From NCBI GenBank assembly GCA_024398965.1, contig JAKSIF010000022.1, positions 1-43,302 on the forward strand: a DNA stretch of 43,302 bases, in the 5' to 3' direction. A program made the position numbers and the translations under genes. This DNA comes from Fibrobacter sp. (GTDB lineage: Bacteria > Fibrobacterota > Fibrobacteria > Fibrobacterales > Fibrobacteraceae). The notes under the pieces are model-generated. The model saw nothing but the letters and a program-made list of their open reading frames with translations, was not told the origin of the DNA and did no database searches. Shown piece after piece: positions 219 to 9,804 of this stretch (within the stretch, counting starts at the first letter, position 1; every line of letters begins with the position of its first letter).

Positions 219-779
219 CTACGCCACGATTTCGTTTAGGTCGTAGAACATTAGACGAGTATAAGGATTGTCGTCCCTGCCTGATCCTAGCATGCAAAAT
301 CCGTTTTTCTCGTAAAAAGGAACCGCGTTTATGTAGGCGTCCACGGTTAAAAATCTGCAACCGGATTTATTGTCTGACGTGAAGTAAGTCTTTACAAAAT
401 CCAGGAGAAATGTGCCGACGTTTTCACCTTTATATGCGTTGGATACACCAAGACGGCATAGCTTTATTGCTGGATAGCTTCTTAATCGTTTTGGTTGAGG
501 GAATCCCTGTTGTTTTCGAAAACGGTTGAATTCGGTCTTGCTTTCAAAATCACCTAGGGCAACCTTGTCGTTGGCCATACTGAAAAATCCGATGACATCA
601 GTGGGCGTATCCTTGTCAACAAGGACGTAGCTTACTGCCAGTAGTGATTTTCTGTAAAGGGAGGATTCCTTTAGGACAAATTCGTTGATGTCGGCATCGC
701 CGCAGTCAAAGGACTTGACAATGCTGTTTTCATTTAGTCTGCGTATTTCAAACTTTTGGAAATCTAATGATTTTGACAA
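219..779 (-). CDS. GNAT N-acetyltransferase, possible toxin of a type II toxin-antitoxin pair
   Basis: A 186-residue protein with GNAT features: the acetyl-CoA-binding region around 'KLCRLGVSNAYKGENVGTFL' and a C-terminal 'AVPFYEKNGF' strand-helix, as in Acetyltransf_1-type enzymes. The N-terminal 'FDCGDADINEFV' stretch resembles the N-terminus of tRNA-acetylating GNAT toxins (TacT/AtaT-like). The start is a TTG with a strong GGGAGG seven nt upstream on the minus strand. It overlaps the end of a small upstream reading frame (764-957) by 16 nt, the arrangement of an antitoxin-toxin operon. The GNAT family assignment is firm; the toxin role is inferred from gene order and N-terminal resemblance, and an ordinary small-molecule acetyltransferase remains possible. 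Confidence 0.8.
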   Translation of the reverse strand: MSKSLDFQKFEIRRLNENSIVKSFDCGDADINEFVLKESSLYRKSLLAVSYVLVDKDTPTDVIGFFSMANDKVALGDFESKTEFNRFRKQQGFPQPKRLRSYPAIKLCRLGVSNAYKGENVGTFLLDFVKTYFTSDNKSGCRFLTVDAYINAVPFYEKNGFCMLGSGRDDNPYTRLMFYDLNEIVA

Positions 780-2390: not shown

Positions 2391-2444
2391 CCCCGGGAAA
2401 ACCTCCTGACAGCCGCCCCCTAAGGCAAATCAGGCAACTCGGGG
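2391..2444 (+). ncRNA. Candidate structured leader of the RimK/GCS2 operon
   Basis: A GC-rich stretch ending 36 nt before the first gene of the operon can fold into nested stems: CCCCG (2391-2395) with CGGGG (2440-2444); inside it CCTGA (2405-2409) with TCAGG (2430-2434); inside that GCC (2412-2414) with GGC (2424-2426), leaving a C-rich apical loop. That loop (GCCCC) could instead pair with GGGGC at 2441-2445. It matches no riboswitch class I recognise (cobalamin, fluoride, glycine, guanidine and cyclic-di-GMP were considered). A cis-acting leader is an inference from folding only. Confidence 0.35.
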
Positions 2445-2480
2445 CAATGGCGCCCTGCTAGAGCCTCCAAACAGAAGGCA

Positions 2481-3179
2481 ATGATGGACATCAAAATTTT
2501 GCCGCAACCCGACGATGTCACCTGCGGCCCCACGAGCTTGCATGCCGTGTACGAGTATCTTGGTTACAAGATTCCCCTTAAAAAGCTAATTTCTGAAATT
2601 GAGTTCCTGGAAGAAGGTGGTACTCTCGGGGTGTTCCTGGGAATTGACGCGCTGAAGCGGGGTTTCAAGGCGACCATCCATTCTTACAATCTCAAGATTT
2701 TCGACCCTACCTGGAGTGAGCTGAAAATGCCTGAACTTCGGGGAAAGCTAACGCAGTTGCGCCGTACAAAGACTGCTCCGAAACTGCGCAAGGCCATTGA
2801 GGCGTACATCCGGTTTATCGACTTGGGCGGAACCGTCGCCATGACAGATTTGCGGGCGGCCATGTTCGAGAAATATTTCAAGAAAGGTGTTCCCGTTCTT
2901 TGCGGACTTTCGGCCACTTACCTTTACCAGTGCAAGCGAGAATACACCGACGAAAACGACCAATCCGTCTTTGACGATATTCACGGGGAGCCCTGCGGTC
3001 ATTTTGTGGTGGCGTACGGTTTAGATGAAAACAAGCAGTTCCTGGTAGCGGATCCGGACTGTTCCAATCCCCTTCATAAAAGTCCCTATTACAAGGTGGA
3101 CAAATTCAGATTCTTACATAGCATTCTGCTTGGGGTCATGACCTACGACGGCAACGTGCTGGTTGTTGAAAAGGTTTAA
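2481..3179 (+). CDS. C39-like cysteine peptidase of the ATP-grasp operon
   Basis: A 232-residue papain-fold peptidase of the C39-like group. The N-terminal 'QPDDVTCGPTS' gives the oxyanion Gln9 and nucleophile Cys15; 'CGHFVVAYG' gives His174; 'VADPD' gives Asp191, completing the catalytic set. There is no signal peptide or transporter domain, so it should act in the cytoplasm rather than as part of a bacteriocin exporter. The start is one of two adjacent ATGs (2481 or 2484) behind AGAAGG. The next gene follows after 2 nt, so the two are almost certainly translated together. It may trim or hydrolyse a peptide made by the neighbouring ligases; the substrate is unknown. Confidence 0.85.
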   Translation: MMDIKILPQPDDVTCGPTSLHAVYEYLGYKIPLKKLISEIEFLEEGGTLGVFLGIDALKRGFKATIHSYNLKIFDPTWSELKMPELRGKLTQLRRTKTAPKLRKAIEAYIRFIDLGGTVAMTDLRAAMFEKYFKKGVPVLCGLSATYLYQCKREYTDENDQSVFDDIHGEPCGHFVVAYGLDENKQFLVADPDCSNPLHKSPYYKVDKFRFLHSILLGVMTYDGNVLVVEKV

Positions 3180-3181
3180 TC

Positions 3182-4684
3182 ATGAAAAAAATTATAGTCG
3201 TAAACAATCCTAAGAACTGGAAATTGAATGTTCCAGGCGTTGATGTGGTGTCCGCACAGGACTACCTGATTTCCCAGAAGTACATGGCCGACAAGAACAC
3301 CCGCGTGTTCAACCTTTGCCGCGATTACAGCTACCAGAGCAAGGGCTACTACGTTTCCTTGCTGGCGGAAGCCCGCGGCCACAAGGTTATTCCTGGCGTA
3401 AAGAACATGCGTGACTTCAAGACCACCGCGGTCATCAAGCATATCTCCGATGAAATCGATAACTTGATTCAGAAGAGTCTGCACAAGCTGACCGGCACGG
3501 AATTCGTGCTGAGCATTTACTTCGGCCAGAATGTAAGCCCACAATATCTGGAACTTTCCCAGGAACTTTACAAGCTGTTCCAGGCTCCGTTGCTTCGTGC
3601 CAAGTTCGTGTTTAAGCAGAAGTGGTTTATTCAGAGCATTCGCCCCATTTGTGTAGATGAAATTCCCGAAGCCCACATGGAAATGGTGAACAAGTTTGCC
3701 CAGGAATACTTTACCAAGAACCGCTACGCCAGCGCCCCCGATGAAGACTACCTGTATGATTTGGCCATCCTTACGAACCCCGATGAAAAGGAGCCGCCCA
3801 GTAACAAGGAGGCGATTCAGAATTTTATCAAGGCCGCAGAGGAAACAGGTTTCCGTGTTGAAATGATCACCAAGAAGGATTACGCCCGCGTCGGTGAATT
3901 TGATGCTTTGTTTATTCGCGAAACCACAAACGTCAATCATTATACTTACAGTTTTGCCCGTCGCGCCCAGTCCCTTGGAATTGCTGTAATTGATGATCCT
4001 GATAGCATATTACGTTGTTCTAATAAGGTGTATTTGCAGGAGCTGATGCAGGCTGCAAAAATCCATTCGCCAAAGACCATTATCGCACATTCTGAAAACC
4101 GCCACACGCTTGCCAAGGAAATCGGATTCCCTATGGTTATCAAGTCTCCGGATTCCAGTTTTTCTATGGGTGTGAAAAAGGCCTGCAATAAGGAAGAACT
4201 GGACAAGATTCTGGACCAGATGTTTGAACATAGTGACCTGCTCATTGCCCAGGAATTTACTCCCACGGATTTTGACTGGAGAATCGGCGTTCTGGATGGC
4301 AAGCCTCTTTACGCCTGCAAGTATTACATGGCAAAAGACCACTGGCAGATTTACAACTGGGAAAGTAAGGACAAGGATGAAATCTGCGGAATGTTTGATT
4401 GCCTGCCCATCGAAAGTGTGCCCCATGGAATTGTGAAAACGGCCTTGAAAATTTGCAGCATGATTGGTAACGGCTTGTACGGCGTGGATCTTAAAGAATG
4501 GAAGGGGGAGCCCATCGTAGTCGAAGTCAATGACAACCCCAGCATTGACGCAGGGATAGAAGATCAGGTGGGCAAGAAGAAAATTTACACCGCTGTCATG
4601 CGCTCTCTGCGTCACCGCATCGAAGACCGCCTGAATGCAGCACAACAAAAAATCCTTCAACACGAAAGAGAGTTTTACCTGTAG
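3182..4684 (+). CDS. RimK-type ATP-grasp ligase with N-terminal RLAN domain
   Basis: A 500-residue ligase. Residues about 1-150 match the RLAN (RimK-like ATP-grasp N-terminal) type, including 'FNLCRDYSYQSKGYYVSLLAEARG'-like sequence. Residues about 210-300 are a RimK pre-ATP-grasp region with 'FIRETTNVNHYTYSFARRA'. The ATP-grasp domain follows: 'FPMVIKSPDSSFSMGV' near 316-331 (nucleotide-binding Lys and Gly-rich loop) and 'VEVNDNPSID' near 446-455 (metal ligands). RimK enzymes add amino acids, often glutamate, to a peptide or protein carboxylate via an acyl phosphate. It sits between a cysteine peptidase and a GCS2-type ligase, which suggests synthesis of a short peptide or modified amine rather than modification of ribosomal protein S6. 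Confidence 0.9.
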   Translation: MKKIIVVNNPKNWKLNVPGVDVVSAQDYLISQKYMADKNTRVFNLCRDYSYQSKGYYVSLLAEARGHKVIPGVKNMRDFKTTAVIKHISDEIDNLIQKSLHKLTGTEFVLSIYFGQNVSPQYLELSQELYKLFQAPLLRAKFVFKQKWFIQSIRPICVDEIPEAHMEMVNKFAQEYFTKNRYASAPDEDYLYDLAILTNPDEKEPPSNKEAIQNFIKAAEETGFRVEMITKKDYARVGEFDALFIRETTNVNHYTYSFARRAQSLGIAVIDDPDSILRCSNKVYLQELMQAAKIHSPKTIIAHSENRHTLAKEIGFPMVIKSPDSSFSMGVKKACNKEELDKILDQMFEHSDLLIAQEFTPTDFDWRIGVLDGKPLYACKYYMAKDHWQIYNWESKDKDEICGMFDCLPIESVPHGIVKTALKICSMIGNGLYGVDLKEWKGEPIVVEVNDNPSIDAGIEDQVGKKKIYTAVMRSLRHRIEDRLNAAQQKILQHEREFYL

Positions 4685-4704
4685 GAATAAGGGTGCACTG
4701 AATA

Positions 4705-4786
4705 CGTCATCCTGAATGGAGCGCAGCGAAATGAAGGATCCAGTGAAATGCCTTATGGATTCTTCGGCATTGCGCTCAGAATGACG
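4705..4786. repeat. Palindromic intergenic repeat, 82 bp
   Basis: The left half begins CGTCATCCTGAATGGAGCGC and ends in GAAGGATCC; the right half is its approximate inverse (GGATTCTTCGG ... GCGCTCAGAATGACG). The whole unit can fold into one long hairpin. It lies between the RimK and GCS2 genes. A shorter relative occurs at 6059-6099 in the same operon. The type (GTCATCCTGA ... GAAGGATC) is a dispersed intergenic repeat; the stem could stabilise or separate parts of the message. Confidence 0.7.
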
Positions 4787-4800
4787 AGTGGAGAATAATT

Positions 4801-6051
4801 ATGAACGCATACAAACTTTGGCAAAAATACGGCATCGAGATGGAATACATGATCGTTGACCGTGATACTTTGGATGTTCTCCCTCGTGCTGATGTGCCCC
4901 TGGGACAGGACAAGAACGGTGAACAGCTTTCCGACGTGGAACATGGTCCCATCGGACTTTCCAACGAATTGGTAAGCCATGTGCTGGAACTGAAATGCGC
5001 CAATCCCGTGGATTCCTTGAAGAACTTGGGCAAGACTTTTCATAAGGAAATTCTTGTTGCTAACGAAAAACTGAAATCCATTAACGCAATGCTTTTGCCA
5101 AGTGCGGCCCACCCCTTTATGGATCCTGCGACCATGCAGTTGTGGCCCTACGATTGCAATGAAATTTACGAGACGTATGACCGCATTTTCAACTGCAAGG
5201 GCCATGGCTGGGCTAACTTGCAGAGTACCCACATTAATTTGAGTTTTAACGGTGACGAAGAATTCGGAAAACTCCATGCCGCCATCCGTGCGCTGCTGCC
5301 CTTGATTCCTGCAATCGCTGCGTCTAGCCCGTTTTTGGATGGAAAGTACTGCGGTTACCTGGATGGACGTATTGAAACTTATCGCCACAATCAGGATCGG
5401 GTTCCTAGCATTGCGGGGCTTGTAATTCCTGAGGCCGCATTCACTTATGACGAATACAACCAGCAGATTTTCGAGAAGGTGAAGGCCGACATCGCCCCCT
5501 ACGACACGGAACATTTGCTGAATCATTTCTTCTTGAATAGCCGTGGTGCCATCGCCCGCTTTGACCGTGGAGCCATTGAAATTCGTCTGGTGGATATTCA
5601 GGAATGCCCTGATGCGGATATCGCCATCGCCGAATGGGAAGTGGCAGCCTTGAAGGGGATGGTGGAAGGTGCTTTTAGCGGAGCATCTCTTGATGCAATT
5701 TCAAAGAAGGTTCGTGCTTTGGATACTGCCGCCCTCGCAAAGATCTTGCTGGACACCACCCGCTTTGCAGAAAAGACCATTATCCGCGACAAGGCTTTCT
5801 TGAATGTGTGGGGCATTGACGCAAGTGAAATCACCGCTGGCGAAATCGTGCAGCATATTTTCCAGGTGGTCAAGGGAAAAATCTCAGGACACTCCCAGGA
5901 ATTGCTCCGCAAAATGTTCAAGCGCGGGACCCTCGCAAGCGCCTTGGTAAAGAACGTTGGCGCAGACCCAGGCCGCGACGATTTCGTATGCGAATACGGA
6001 CGCCTTGCCCGCTGCCTTGCCGAGAATGAACTGTATGACGCTGAAGAATAA
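4801..6051 (+). CDS. GCS2-family glutamate-cysteine-ligase-like carboxylate-amine ligase
   Basis: A 416-residue member of the GCS2 family (glutamate-cysteine ligase type 2, YbdK-like). Marks are 'GIEMEYMIVD' at residues 11-20, with the glutamate/metal-binding acids E13 and E15; 'STHINLSF' near 140; 'SSPFLDG' and 'RIETYRHNQDRVP' near 178-203; and 'RGAIEIRLVDIQECPDADIAI' near 258-278. The family forms amide bonds between a glutamate gamma-carboxyl and an amine. It starts at ATG behind GTGGAGA. Its neighbours make a role in a dedicated small-peptide pathway more likely than glutathione synthesis, since no gshB is present nearby. The amine partner is unknown. Confidence 0.88.
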   Translation: MNAYKLWQKYGIEMEYMIVDRDTLDVLPRADVPLGQDKNGEQLSDVEHGPIGLSNELVSHVLELKCANPVDSLKNLGKTFHKEILVANEKLKSINAMLLPSAAHPFMDPATMQLWPYDCNEIYETYDRIFNCKGHGWANLQSTHINLSFNGDEEFGKLHAAIRALLPLIPAIAASSPFLDGKYCGYLDGRIETYRHNQDRVPSIAGLVIPEAAFTYDEYNQQIFEKVKADIAPYDTEHLLNHFFLNSRGAIARFDRGAIEIRLVDIQECPDADIAIAEWEVAALKGMVEGAFSGASLDAISKKVRALDTAALAKILLDTTRFAEKTIIRDKAFLNVWGIDASEITAGEIVQHIFQVVKGKISGHSQELLRKMFKRGTLASALVKNVGADPGRDDFVCEYGRLARCLAENELYDAEE

Positions 6052-6058
6052 ACCCTGT

Positions 6059-6099
6059 GTCATCCTGAGCGAAGCGCGGAGCGCGAAGTCGAAGGATCT
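6059..6099. repeat. Dispersed GTCATCCTGAGC/GAAGGATC repeat
   Basis: A 41-bp copy of the repeat family seen at 4705-4786, with an internal GCGC-GGA-GCGC mini-hairpin. It fills the gap between the GCS2 and amidohydrolase genes. Its last bases (GAAGGATC) lie eight nt before the ATG at 6105, so the repeat itself provides the Shine-Dalgarno sequence of the next gene. Confidence 0.7.
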
Positions 6100-6104
6100 A
6101 ATGC

Positions 6105-6728
6105 ATGTCTCAAAATGATTTCAAATTGATGATCACCTGCGAGCACGCCAGCAACGAATTGCCTGCCCGGGTGAAGGACTTGCGAATCTCCCAAGAAGAT
6201 CTCGATTCTCACCGAGGTTACGACATCGGCGCCTTCGCTGTGTACGAAGAACTTGTGTCAAAGTTCAAACCGGATTTCTACAGCTCTGGGCGCTACTCCC
6301 GACTTTTTGTGGACTTGAATCGTAGCTTGCGGAATAACAAGTTCGCGAGCCCCGCGGGAATCGCCTATCACGAATCCTACTGGGGTGAAGTGGAAAAATT
6401 CGTGGCGCAGAACTTACCCGAAAAGGAGAGTGCTTCGCCTGCAATCGTGCACTTGGCCATCCACAGTTTTACTCCGGAGTTAAACGGCATCGTCCGAAAT
6501 GCGGATATTGGTATTCTTTACGACCCTAGCCGCTCGGCAGAAAAAGCTTACGCTGATGTTATCGTGGACGAGATTCTCCGCGATTACCCGCAGTACAAGG
6601 TACGTCGCAACTATCCTTACCTGGGTAAAACCGATGGCCTGTGTACTGCCCTCCGCAAGAAATTCGACCCCCACAAAACAGGCTGTTATGTGGGCTTTGA
6701 AATAGAAATCAACCAGAAATTGCTGTAG
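6105..6728 (+). CDS. N-formylglutamate amidohydrolase-family hydrolase
   Basis: A 207-residue protein of the FGase family (PF05013-type, zinc amidohydrolase). Family motifs in order: 'CEHASNELP' at 12-20, 'SHRGYDIGA' near 35-43, 'SRLFVDLNRSL' near 66-76, 'VHLAIHSFTP' near 115-124, 'DIGILYDPSR' near 136-145, and a C-terminal 'YVGFEIEINQ'. There are no histidine-utilisation genes nearby, so degradation of N-formylglutamate from histidine is unlikely. In this operon it more plausibly cleaves an amide on the product of the RimK and GCS2 ligases. It starts at ATG with AAGGA eight nt upstream, inside the repeat 6059-6099. An overlapping ATG at 6101 stops after five codons. Confidence 0.88.
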   Translation: MSQNDFKLMITCEHASNELPARVKDLRISQEDLDSHRGYDIGAFAVYEELVSKFKPDFYSSGRYSRLFVDLNRSLRNNKFASPAGIAYHESYWGEVEKFVAQNLPEKESASPAIVHLAIHSFTPELNGIVRNADIGILYDPSRSAEKAYADVIVDEILRDYPQYKVRRNYPYLGKTDGLCTALRKKFDPHKTGCYVGFEIEINQKLL

Positions 6729-6737
6729 ATTATTATC

Positions 6738-6786
6738 TTTCTTGAGAGAATATTAGGAGTGTTATGAAAAAATTATTCTCAAGAAA
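6738..6786 (+). promoter_or_regulatory. Hairpin enclosing the RBS and start codon of the 6764 lipoprotein
   Basis: TTTCTTGA (6738-6745) pairs with TCAAGAAA (6779-6786), and after a two-base bulge GAATA (6748-6752) pairs with TATTC (6774-6778). The 21-nt loop contains AGGAG (6755-6759) and the ATG (6764). Thirteen pairs around a start site are more than expected by chance. It could hold back translation or be a DNA operator; neither is proven. Confidence 0.45.
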
Positions 6787-7879
6787 CATTCTGAACGTGA
6801 CGAAATTCGCCGCAGTTTCCTTTGCGATGCTCGCGGCTCTGCTTATTGCCTGCGGCGACGATAATGGCTCCAGCGCTACGGATGAGGGGACGGGCAGTTC
6901 CAGCACTAATGAAGATCCAATCCTTTCGTCATCATCGAATCTTGAGCCTGTAGCGTATTCCTCCTGCAGCTTCGTCCAGTTGCGTGAAGATACAGAGGAT
7001 TCCTCTCGCCTGACCATTTATCGATTCCTGTATCCCCGCGCAGACATGTCCTTAGATACGGGCTATTTCAATGGTCACGAATGCAGCGTCGAAATGGACG
7101 GAAAGTTTAGTTGTATGCAAAGGTCCTGTGTTCCCGTTGAAGGTGGTCAAATTGATATCCCGCAAAGTTATGGCATTCTTGCTGTTGACGCAAAAAATAG
7201 AGATGGTGGATATAGTGAGTATTTCTACACCAGCACAGATATAACGCGACTGGTGGATATAAACTTTGGCGATAGCGCGCTTACTACATTCATTCCGTTT
7301 GCTGACATTCCCGAGTTTGATAGGGATGGCATCTTGGAACAACTCTCTGCTTTACCTGCCGAGCCATGTTCAACTTTATTTCGTTTTGAAGGAAATTATC
7401 TATTGCAGGCGGATGGATTGCCTGAAGGAATTGTACTTTATCGCGATGGTCAGGGAATTAAGGGGCGTGGAGATTCTCGGGAATACTATTCGGCTTTATT
7501 CCCGAAGGATGAATTGGCCACCGTAAAGGCGCGCATTTATGAGGTTGGTCAAGGTGAAAAGTCTTCTTACAACAAACTCATGGAAGGATGTTACAGTGAA
7601 CTGAAATATGCTCCAGATAGAGGACTTGATATCTCCAACCAAACGATTAAAGCAGAGATTAATGATTTTGGCTGCGGCGTTGTGTCGACATCCTATAAAA
7701 CGGCTATGTTGGCTGGACTTTGTGAAGGCTGGAAAATCCCCGAAGACGCAAAGGTGTTTTCCTATCGCCTAATCAACATTTCTGACAAGGTCCCTGAAAA
7801 TCCTGTCCAGTGGAAATTGACCTATATGGATCAGTATGGCCGAGGTGGCTCCTTGGATATTGTCACCCAATTTGAATAG
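6764..7879 (+). CDS. Lipoprotein of unknown function
   Basis: A 371-residue exported protein. A basic N-terminus (MKKLFSRN) and hydrophobic stretch end in the lipobox LIAC near residue 29, followed by GDDNGSSATDEGTGSSS, a short version of the Ser-rich linker in the 1172 gene. The rest (about 60-371) has no domain I recognise and is not a FISUMP domain. It contains about ten Cys residues, suggesting disulfides outside the cytoplasm. ATG follows TAGGAG by five nt. It is separated from the amidohydrolase gene by 35 nt without a terminator, so read-through is possible, but the lipoprotein character suggests an unrelated surface role. Confidence 0.85.
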   Translation: MKKLFSRNILNVTKFAAVSFAMLAALLIACGDDNGSSATDEGTGSSSTNEDPILSSSSNLEPVAYSSCSFVQLREDTEDSSRLTIYRFLYPRADMSLDTGYFNGHECSVEMDGKFSCMQRSCVPVEGGQIDIPQSYGILAVDAKNRDGGYSEYFYTSTDITRLVDINFGDSALTTFIPFADIPEFDRDGILEQLSALPAEPCSTLFRFEGNYLLQADGLPEGIVLYRDGQGIKGRGDSREYYSALFPKDELATVKARIYEVGQGEKSSYNKLMEGCYSELKYAPDRGLDISNQTIKAEINDFGCGVVSTSYKTAMLAGLCEGWKIPEDAKVFSYRLINISDKVPENPVQWKLTYMDQYGRGGSLDIVTQFE

Positions 7880-8800: not shown

Positions 8801-8838
8801 GGCGAAACCGCCTTGCGCTATTGCGGGGGCGTTCCCGC
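8801..8838. repeat. Two small GC hairpins upstream of the Rpn-type nuclease
   Basis: GGCG-AAAC-CGCC at 8801-8812 and GCGGG-GGCGTT-CCCGC at 8823-8838 stand in an otherwise AT-rich intergenic region. The second closely resembles the hairpin at 32202-32218 (GCGGGGG..T.TCCCGC..GGGA), so it is probably a dispersed repeat. Confidence 0.45.
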
Positions 8839-8850
8839 CGGGATAAAACT

Positions 8851-9804
8851 ATGGCAACTTTTGAGGAAAAAGTCGAAAAGCAAGTTGAAATTTTAAAGCA
8901 GCATACGTTCCTGGATCCGACCCGGGACAGGGTCTTCAAGGAAATCTTTTCGAAGGATGCGACTCTAATCCATTTCTTGAACGCAATCTTGCACCTGCCC
9001 GAGGAACGCAAAATCGTGAGTATCGAACGCAAGAAGCCTGCGTCGACGTTGACTTCCGCAATCGATGTGGAGGAGGTCCGCTTTGACGTACACGCGAAGC
9101 TCAACAATGAAGAATACGTGGATCTGGAGATGCAGCGGGCGACTCACGAGGATTTTGTGGACCGTGTGGAGCTTTATGCAAGTCAGCTCTCCATCGAATC
9201 CAAGATTCACTTTGACAGCCAGCGCACCGAGACCGAGAAGGAGGATCACCCCTACCTGATGCCCACCACCTACAGCATCTGGATCTGCAATTTCCCGGTC
9301 CGCTTTTGCGAATGCTACCGTGAGGAACTGGGACTCTTCCGTTTTTCCAGCCTGGGCAACCCTGACGCCTTGCCTGTATATGATAAAAAAAGGTATATTA
9401 TCGTGGATTTGAGCAAGGTGGATGCGAAGGTCTTGAACCTGAACACCGCCGAGACGGAATGGCTGGAACTCTTCACCAGGATGGCTTCTGCGAAGGATGC
9501 CCCCAAGACGAAGGATCCCGTCATTGCGGATGTCTACCGCCGGATGATGGTGAACGCCCTCGAGAAGAATTTTATCAAGGAGATTGCAGCAGGTATGGTC
9601 ACAGAGGCTGAAATCAAGACACGAATCGGAACCGCCCGCCGCGAAGGCCGTGAAGAAGGCCGCGACGAAGCGAGACTGGGTGACGCCGAAGCGCTCCTTC
9701 GTTACGGAGATTCCGTAGAAAAAGTTTCCCTGGTTCTCAAGTTGCCTCTTGAAAAGGTACAGGAACTGGCAAGTAAGATTGCCTCCGGGAATGCGAAACG
9801 CTAA
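8851..9804 (+). CDS. Rpn-family recombination-promoting nuclease / PD-(D/E)XK putative transposase
   Basis: A 317-residue protein of the PDDEXK_2 / Rpn type. The N-terminal 'FLDPTRDRVFKEIFSKDATLIHFLNAIL' region is characteristic. The nuclease core shows 'VRFDVHAKLNNEEYVDLEMQRA' near 80-102, giving the D...ExQ catalytic pattern typical of this family. The C-terminus 'RREGREEGRDEARLGDAEALL' is the usual charged helix followed by a short HTH-like tail. Rpn proteins are DNA endonucleases that can raise recombination; they are found in many copies and are not classical transposases. I chose ATG 8851 rather than an upstream in-frame TTG at 8821, because that lies inside a GC hairpin. A terminator follows at 9828. 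Confidence 0.9.
   Translation: MATFEEKVEKQVEILKQHTFLDPTRDRVFKEIFSKDATLIHFLNAILHLPEERKIVSIERKKPASTLTSAIDVEEVRFDVHAKLNNEEYVDLEMQRATHEDFVDRVELYASQLSIESKIHFDSQRTETEKEDHPYLMPTTYSIWICNFPVRFCECYREELGLFRFSSLGNPDALPVYDKKRYIIVDLSKVDAKVLNLNTAETEWLELFTRMASAKDAPKTKDPVIADVYRRMMVNALEKNFIKEIAAGMVTEAEIKTRIGTARREGREEGRDEARLGDAEALLRYGDSVEKVSLVLKLPLEKVQELASKIASGNAKR

Follow-up and report, generated by a model that had tools for sequence, protein, structure and literature searches.

A four-gene operon in a Fibrobacter genome

The DNA analyzed here is a 43,302-nucleotide stretch of Fibrobacter sp. contig JAKSIF010000022.1 (assembly GCA_024398965.1, positions 1 to 43,302 of the forward strand; hereafter the window), from a 3.59 Mb genome (G000) that is 99.9% complete. 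It carries a four-gene operon in which two predicted ATP-dependent amide-bond ligases, of the RLAN-RimK and GCS2 families, are combined with a C39-like cysteine enzyme and a hydrolase of the N-formylglutamate amidohydrolase (FGase) family.

2481-3179, + strand: C39-like (papain-fold) cysteine peptidase or transpeptidase, 232 amino acids (aa); open reading frame (ORF) with PF13529/PF03412; residues Q9, C15, H174, D191
3182-4684, + strand: RLAN-RimK ATP-grasp ligase, 500 aa; PF14401 and PF08443
4801-6051, + strand: GCS2-family carboxylate-amine ligase, 416 aa; PF04107
6105-6728, + strand: FGase-family (N-formylglutamate amidohydrolase-like) hydrolase, 207 aa; PF05013

The first ATG of the operon is at 2481, and position 2391, where a previous sequence-only reading had begun the locus, lies 90 bp farther upstream. 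C39 and RLAN-RimK are spaced by 2 bp, and long antisense ORFs overlapping the four genes were not counted as genes. Each protein scored above the curated Pfam cut-off of its family: C39 against Peptidase_C39_2 (35.5 bits; cut-off 24), RLAN-RimK against both RLAN (PF14401, 161 bits, E 1.8e-47; cut-off 25) and RimK (PF08443, 41 bits; cut-off 21), GCS2 against PF04107 (72 bits, E 5e-20; cut-off 21) and FGase against PF05013 (64 bits, E 3e-17; cut-off 28.9), the last also giving a profile match to PDB entry 2odf (E 4.6e-23). Within RLAN-RimK, the RLAN domain occupies residues 25-170 and a LysX/ArgX/RimK-type ATP-grasp domain residues 192-482. A genome-wide profile search returned the operon's GCS2 as the sole GCS2 match in the source genome. 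The C39-like enzyme carries no signal peptide and is predicted to be cytosolic.

Active sites were compared in alignments of 24-34 homologues per family, drawn from several phyla. The sequence-only reading had described a complete cysteine/histidine/aspartate set in C39, and this was confirmed, with Q9, C15, H174 and D191 invariant among 31 homologues. The same held for K282, K321, D436, E448 and N450 of the ATP-grasp domain (also aligned to RimK and LysX), for G11/E13/E15, N55-E56, H104, H144, R253 and E260 of GCS2, and for E13/H14, H36, R66 and H120 of FGase. Judged by what is known of the families, these positions are predicted to be catalytic. No degeneration was seen in any of the four enzymes across these homologues, contrary to what the sequence-only reading had named as a ground for doubt, degenerate ligase active sites in close relatives.

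Conserved gene order across phyla

The same-strand order C39>RLAN>GCS2>FGase recurred in Fibrobacterota, Bacteroidota, Ignavibacteriae, Spirochaetota and Gammaproteobacteria, and because it recurs in several phyla it lies far beyond chance expectation. The full order was present at 23 Fibrobacterota loci, with 8 more lacking only an adjacent FGase (some genomes entered this count twice). In a genome scan it was found at 23 of 44 non-Fibrobacter loci, 11 more lacking only the adjacent FGase, although these fractions are biased because the scan retained closest relatives only. Phylum samples of Bacteroidota and Pseudomonadota were selected independently of gene neighbourhood; at the RLAN loci of the evenly drawn Bacteroidota-phylum sample, 12/29 had the full order and 7 more lacked only the adjacent FGase. 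RLAN itself was found in 31 of 247 genomes of this sample, in 56 of 299 of the Pseudomonadota sample and in most Fibrobacter. Along the conserved order the genes overlap or nearly touch, with median intergenic gaps of +2, -4 and -4 bp.

Carriers of the full order in the scan included Ignavibacteriae, Marinilabiliaceae, Cyclobacteriaceae, Roseivirga and Flavobacteriales, as well as one bacterium each of Leptospiraceae and Legionellales and a further gammaproteobacterium. The unit is also found in the isolated species Fibrobacter intestinalis, Marinilabilia salmonicolor and Roseivirga spongicola. No fifth gene family was kept beside the operon across lineages, neighbours recurring within single lineages only (the clustering covered ORFs of about 70 aa and longer). 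In scattered metagenome-assembled genomes of Leptospiraceae, Legionellales and gammaproteobacterial origin (L098, L103 and L104), the operon RLAN was ~50% identical to that of Fibrobacter, which hints that the whole unit may have been transferred horizontally.

Co-occurrence persists where the operon is split

Genome-wide searches found RLAN in 25 of 41 Fibrobacterota genomes. C39, GCS2 and FGase were present in 23, 25 and 22 of these genomes, respectively, versus 1, 2 and 3 of the 16 genomes without RLAN (p 3e-8, 3e-9 and 1e-5, values that here and below overstate significance as they assume independent genomes). Among the 24 good genomes (≥90% complete, ≤5% contaminated), C39 and GCS2 each occurred in 17/17 with RLAN and 0/7 without, and FGase in 17/17 and 1/7 (one extra FGase). 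The signal within the genus was weaker and in the same direction (p 0.002 for C39, 0.001 for GCS2 and 0.03 for FGase). In g5, a more distant genus of Fibrobacterota, FGase is located elsewhere in the genome with a higher PF05013 score and may belong to another subfamily.

In a second Fibrobacter clade (clade B; e.g., L029, L033 and L034) only RLAN and GCS2 are found together. Loss of C39 and FGase from this clade was considered and rejected, since genome-wide searches found both genes relocated. In G001, G004, G006, G012, G013 and G018, C39 and FGase form an adjacent pair at a distance from RLAN-GCS2; in G008 and G017 the four genes are spread over three places, with C39 and FGase separated. 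One or two of the four genes were missing from G007, G014 and G020, the assemblies of which are just 74-85% complete. Retention of the complete set in spite of the operon's breakup is better evidence of a shared function than linkage alone. With genes that usually occur together and active sites that are conserved, the joint pathway proposed in the sequence-only reading is strongly supported, and we consider it almost certain that the four genes run one common pathway. The contrary expectation, that they would rarely be found together elsewhere, failed against a gene order recurring across phyla and near-perfect co-occurrence in Fibrobacterota.

GNAT and GCS2(+FGase) look like alternative partners of RLAN-RimK

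RLAN loci of the Pseudomonadota sample had a different composition. A match to a dedicated GNAT-C39 profile, used for all GNAT-C39 counts, was found within 16 kb at 50 of 51 fetched loci, and neither GCS2 nor FGase was found at any of the 51. Of the 50 matches, 29 were adjacent and co-directional with RLAN-RimK and many others were divergent neighbours; all five GNAT-C39 proteins checked by Pfam combined Acetyltransf_1 with DUF3335 (PF11814). At ~20 Pseudomonadota loci (L219, L223, L227 and others) GNAT-C39 and RLAN-RimK stand side by side in divergent orientation and not as an operon, which suggests that such pairs may share a control region. In the Bacteroidota sample, GCS2 was present at 21/29 RLAN loci, and at the other 8 the GNAT-C39 profile matched extra N-terminal sequence on RLAN-RimK itself, identified as GNAT by Pfam in the two tested. 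Two Bacteroidota loci (L210:7436-9400 and L216:7053-8999) encode an N-terminal GNAT fused to RLAN-RimK with no adjacent C39 or GCS2. At L107, outside the phylum samples, a separate GNAT gene follows RLAN and GCS2 is absent.

The GNAT-C39 profile found no GNAT at those phylum-sample loci that carry GCS2, so that no locus had both, and Pfam found none in the window operon itself. Because GNAT and GCS2 never share a locus in the phylum samples, GNAT and GCS2(+FGase) look like alternative partners of RLAN-RimK. Partner types were strongly clustered on a FastTree tree: the five labels required 14 changes, against 63.5 after shuffling, on a topology with several long branches and unsure details.

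Fold and subfamily of each enzyme

The structural model of C39 (pLDDT 92) points to a Peptidase C39-like papain fold with a Q/C/H/D site. Its VIA-align score was Z 15.2 to the glutathione acyl-enzyme of Alr0975 (2bu3) and 15.1 to C39 peptidase domains, a tie, and AziU2-U3 was among its weak fold matches. By sequence, its homologues belong to C39_2/C39, with weaker links to DUF3335 (21/31) and Guanylate_cyc_2 (20/31) and weak BtrH_N matches in 2/31. The window protein has no PF05023 match and no ABC-transporter fusion, being a stand-alone 232-aa protein.

The ATP-grasp half of RLAN-RimK had its closest solved folds in ArgX, LysX and RimK (Z 24.5-26.7), with lower values for D-Ala-D-Ala ligases (Z about 22-23) and glutathione synthetase 1gsa (Z 21.5). 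No PDB entry among the matches listed spanned residues 1-188, which is barely a test. GCS2 did not reach the NCBIfam cut-offs of the named subfamilies TIGR02050 (YbdK family; 47 bits versus 176) and TIGR02048 (cyanobacterial/plant glutamate-cysteine ligase; 34 bits versus 249).

A proposed gamma-glutamyl pathway and its alternatives

ArgX, LysX and RimK attach acidic amino acids to a carboxylate, glutathione synthetase acts after glutamate-cysteine ligase, and phytochelatin synthase and its cyanobacterial relative Alr0975 perform acyl-thioester chemistry on glutathione. We tentatively propose that the operon encodes a self-contained cytosolic pathway for the synthesis, rearrangement and breakdown of a small gamma-glutamyl peptide or amide, a reading that we place somewhat short of an even chance. 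GCS2 would use ATP to join the gamma-carboxylate of glutamate to the amine of a compound X, giving capped gamma-Glu-X; RLAN-RimK would then activate a carboxylate of gamma-Glu-X with ATP and add a further amino acid, the RLAN domain holding the acceptor. C39 would take up the peptide on C15 as an acyl-thioester and pass it to an amine or water, and FGase would hydrolyze an amide of the glutamyl type, so as to take off the cap or return glutamate for reuse. In RLAN systems with GNAT, capping would be by acetylation, hence GCS2 and FGase would not be needed; the two modules may thus be alternative amine caps, acetyl versus gamma-glutamyl. The wider proposal, that in a widespread small-molecule pathway gamma-glutamylation (GCS2+FGase) takes the place of acetylation (GNAT) in capping the amine on an RLAN-RimK/C39 peptide-assembly line and yields a new gamma-glutamyl peptide metabolite or cofactor, is speculative and rather improbable as a whole. 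Linked peptide ligases often catalyze successive ligations (PMC4431377), and the same paper suggested that, in another ATP-grasp family, acyl capping of the product is the task of a GNAT partner, which fits the amine-cap reading.

Several observations weigh against this scheme. No FGase was nearby at 7 of the 19 C39>RLAN>GCS2 loci of the Bacteroidota sample, and since it is not always adjacent it may be accessory. The exclusion between modules partly tracks phylum. For C39, the Alr0975 match is no better than that to ordinary C39 peptidase domains, Foldseek ranked pseudomurein endoisopeptidase PeiR first and then C39 peptidases, and Pfam Phytochelatin (PF05023) matched 1 of 31 homologues, weakly (E 0.019). 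GCS2 resembles the solved YbdK weakly (E 0.005-0.03), and its family membership is therefore the basis for assigning glutamate as its substrate. Joint divergence of the operon proteins (r 0.69-0.77; 28 non-redundant sets) speaks for the scheme, but it comes from mirror-tree correlations, which do not distinguish co-evolution from shared ancestry. The logic of making, extending and trimming a glutamyl peptide, already put forward in the sequence-only reading, fits the enzyme families; product, substrates and step order in our scheme are inferred.

Alternatively, the four enzymes could act on a protein: RLAN-RimK would add amino acids to it, in the manner of RimK acting on ribosomal protein S6, a gamma-linked cap would come from GCS2, and C39 and FGase would trim or remove the tag. 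Such tagging would suit the RimK/LysX-like ATP-grasp domain, the peptidase fold of C39 (its closest Foldseek matches being an endoisopeptidase and peptidase domains) and an RLAN domain that could bind protein. However, no protein substrate, carrier or additional gene is kept beside the operon, and the GCS2 and FGase families are generally known for small molecules; we regard protein tagging as unlikely. A low-molecular-weight thiol appears more doubtful still. In that case GCS2 would form gamma-Glu-Cys or a relative, RLAN-RimK would extend it to a glutathione-like tripeptide, and C39 and FGase would serve its turnover, which is consistent with a ligase pair resembling glutamate-cysteine ligase and glutathione synthetase, with the operon GCS2 being unique in the genome of a genus devoid of PF04262 and BshC, and with the C39 model tying with glutathione-bound Alr0975. 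On the other hand, the ATP-grasp domain is LysX/RimK-like, with glutathione synthetase a more distant fold match (1gsa Z 21.5 versus 26.7), and 5/6 genomes of genus g5 have BshC together with operon genes, which argues against a simple replacement.

Loading of an amino acid by RLAN-RimK onto a carrier, as in LysW-type lysine/arginine synthesis, with the other enzymes modifying and releasing it, would accord with ArgX and LysX as top fold matches and with AziU2-U3 among the weak ones of C39; yet LysW exceeded its curated cut-off in 0/41 Fibrobacterota genomes and no conserved small gene lies beside the operon (among clustered ORFs, of about 70 aa and longer), and we consider this route very unlikely. 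Least probable to us is a set for scavenging or degrading peptides of the gamma-glutamyl or N-acyl-glutamyl type, in which the ligases would serve for salvage: two of the four enzymes are hydrolases by family, but the most constant pair is that of the two ATP-dependent ligases, RLAN and GCS2 remaining adjacent even where C39 and FGase lie elsewhere, and no transporter gene is kept in the vicinity from lineage to lineage.

Known pathways were also searched for by their marker genes. The source genome has no match to PF00221 (HutH), PF04262 (GshA) or PF10079 (BshC), in agreement with the sequence-only reading, which had found nothing nearby to suggest histidine degradation or glutathione. A HutG role in histidine degradation was rejected for FGase as HutH has no match in the source genome. 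GshA was absent from all 41 Fibrobacterota genomes; BshC was absent from the genus and present with operon genes in g5, where its occurrence alongside the operon does not support glutathione or bacillithiol as the obvious product through simple replacement. A LysW-type carrier pathway was likewise rejected for want of a LysW over the cut-off in the 41 genomes.

Intergenic gaps and flanking genes

Two gaps within the window operon exceed its usual spacing, the RLAN/GCS2 junction having a median of -4 in relatives.

4685-4800, no strand: RLAN-RimK/GCS2 gap, 116 bp; repeat-like stretch CATCCTGAATGGAGCGCAG
6052-6104, no strand: GCS2/FGase gap, 53 bp; second copy of the same repeat type CATCCTGAGCGAAGCGCGG

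A repeat of the CATCCTGAGCGAAGCG...AAGGATC type occurs in both wide gaps, with 2 copies in the window versus 0.16 expected by chance. The strict pattern is nearly missing from the fetched loci of other Fibrobacter, and the repeats in the operon gaps may be recent insertions in the source lineage. Promoter and terminator scans gave results near chance level.

The operon is flanked by lipoprotein-like genes at 1172-2206 and 6764-7879, both with low-complexity serine linkers and the former with a Fib_succ_major domain. About 2 kb downstream, 8821-9804 encodes a PD-(D/E)XK nuclease family transposase (PF12784). At 219-779 (- strand) lies a GNAT acetyltransferase gene with a 41-aa ORF directly upstream (832-957, - strand; MARPIRETPILFGEDARRFEALMKANKK...). 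This GNAT gene is separated from the operon by another gene and is on the opposite strand; the pair resembles a GNAT toxin accompanied by a small antitoxin and probably has no connection with the operon.

Relation to known systems

The Pseudomonadota modules, which are predicted amidoligase systems, share with the window the RLAN-RimK family and a C39-like papain-fold partner, but their C39 is fused to GNAT (GNAT-C39, DUF3335) without GCS2 or FGase, whereas the window has a stand-alone C39 and GCS2 plus FGase in the place of GNAT. The glutathione/phytochelatin route uses the same enzyme types (a gamma-glutamyl ligase, an ATP-grasp ligase and a papain-fold acyl-transfer enzyme); the window differs in its LysX/RimK-like ATP-grasp with RLAN, a C39 outside Pfam Phytochelatin and the extra FGase. 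With RimK, LysX and ArgX the window ligase has the ATP-grasp fold and conserved motifs in common, but it carries an additional RLAN domain, has no LysW and is partnered by GCS2, FGase and C39. In butirosin synthesis, BtrJ-BtrH-BtrG provide glutamyl protection, a papain-like acyltransferase and deprotection, a similar logic of glutamyl cap, papain-fold acyl transfer and later removal; here, no acyl carrier protein or aminoglycoside genes were seen and the hydrolase is of a different family. The N-formylglutamate deformylase HutG shares the Pfam family (PF05013) and conserved residues of the window FGase, which is linked to ligases and not to hut genes.

The sequence-only reading had called the pathway probably undescribed, which is right only in part. 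Literature searches returned no paper on RLAN with GCS2, or on ATP-grasp with GCS2 and N-formylglutamate amidohydrolase, and no product or substrate of RLAN systems was found in searchable papers. RLAN is named in Pfam, the note on which reportedly mentions such neighbourhoods, and fusions of the related papain-like family DUF3335 with GNAT have been discussed as possible peptide-ligase modules: DUF3335 is close to PF09778 and is often fused to GNAT domains, which might serve as peptide ligases (PMC10318531, citing Iyer et al. 2009). RLAN/GNAT-papain ligase modules were probably already predicted by Iyer et al. 2009. The domain families are thus known and a product of the operon was not found described; were this exact gene set already among the predictions of Iyer et al., the additions here would be the statistics across phyla, the splitting of the operon and the exchange of modules. 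The swap of capping modules offers a testable handle on chemistry common to all RLAN systems, and the four genes, a compact and closed unit carried by isolated species, could lead directly to a new metabolite.

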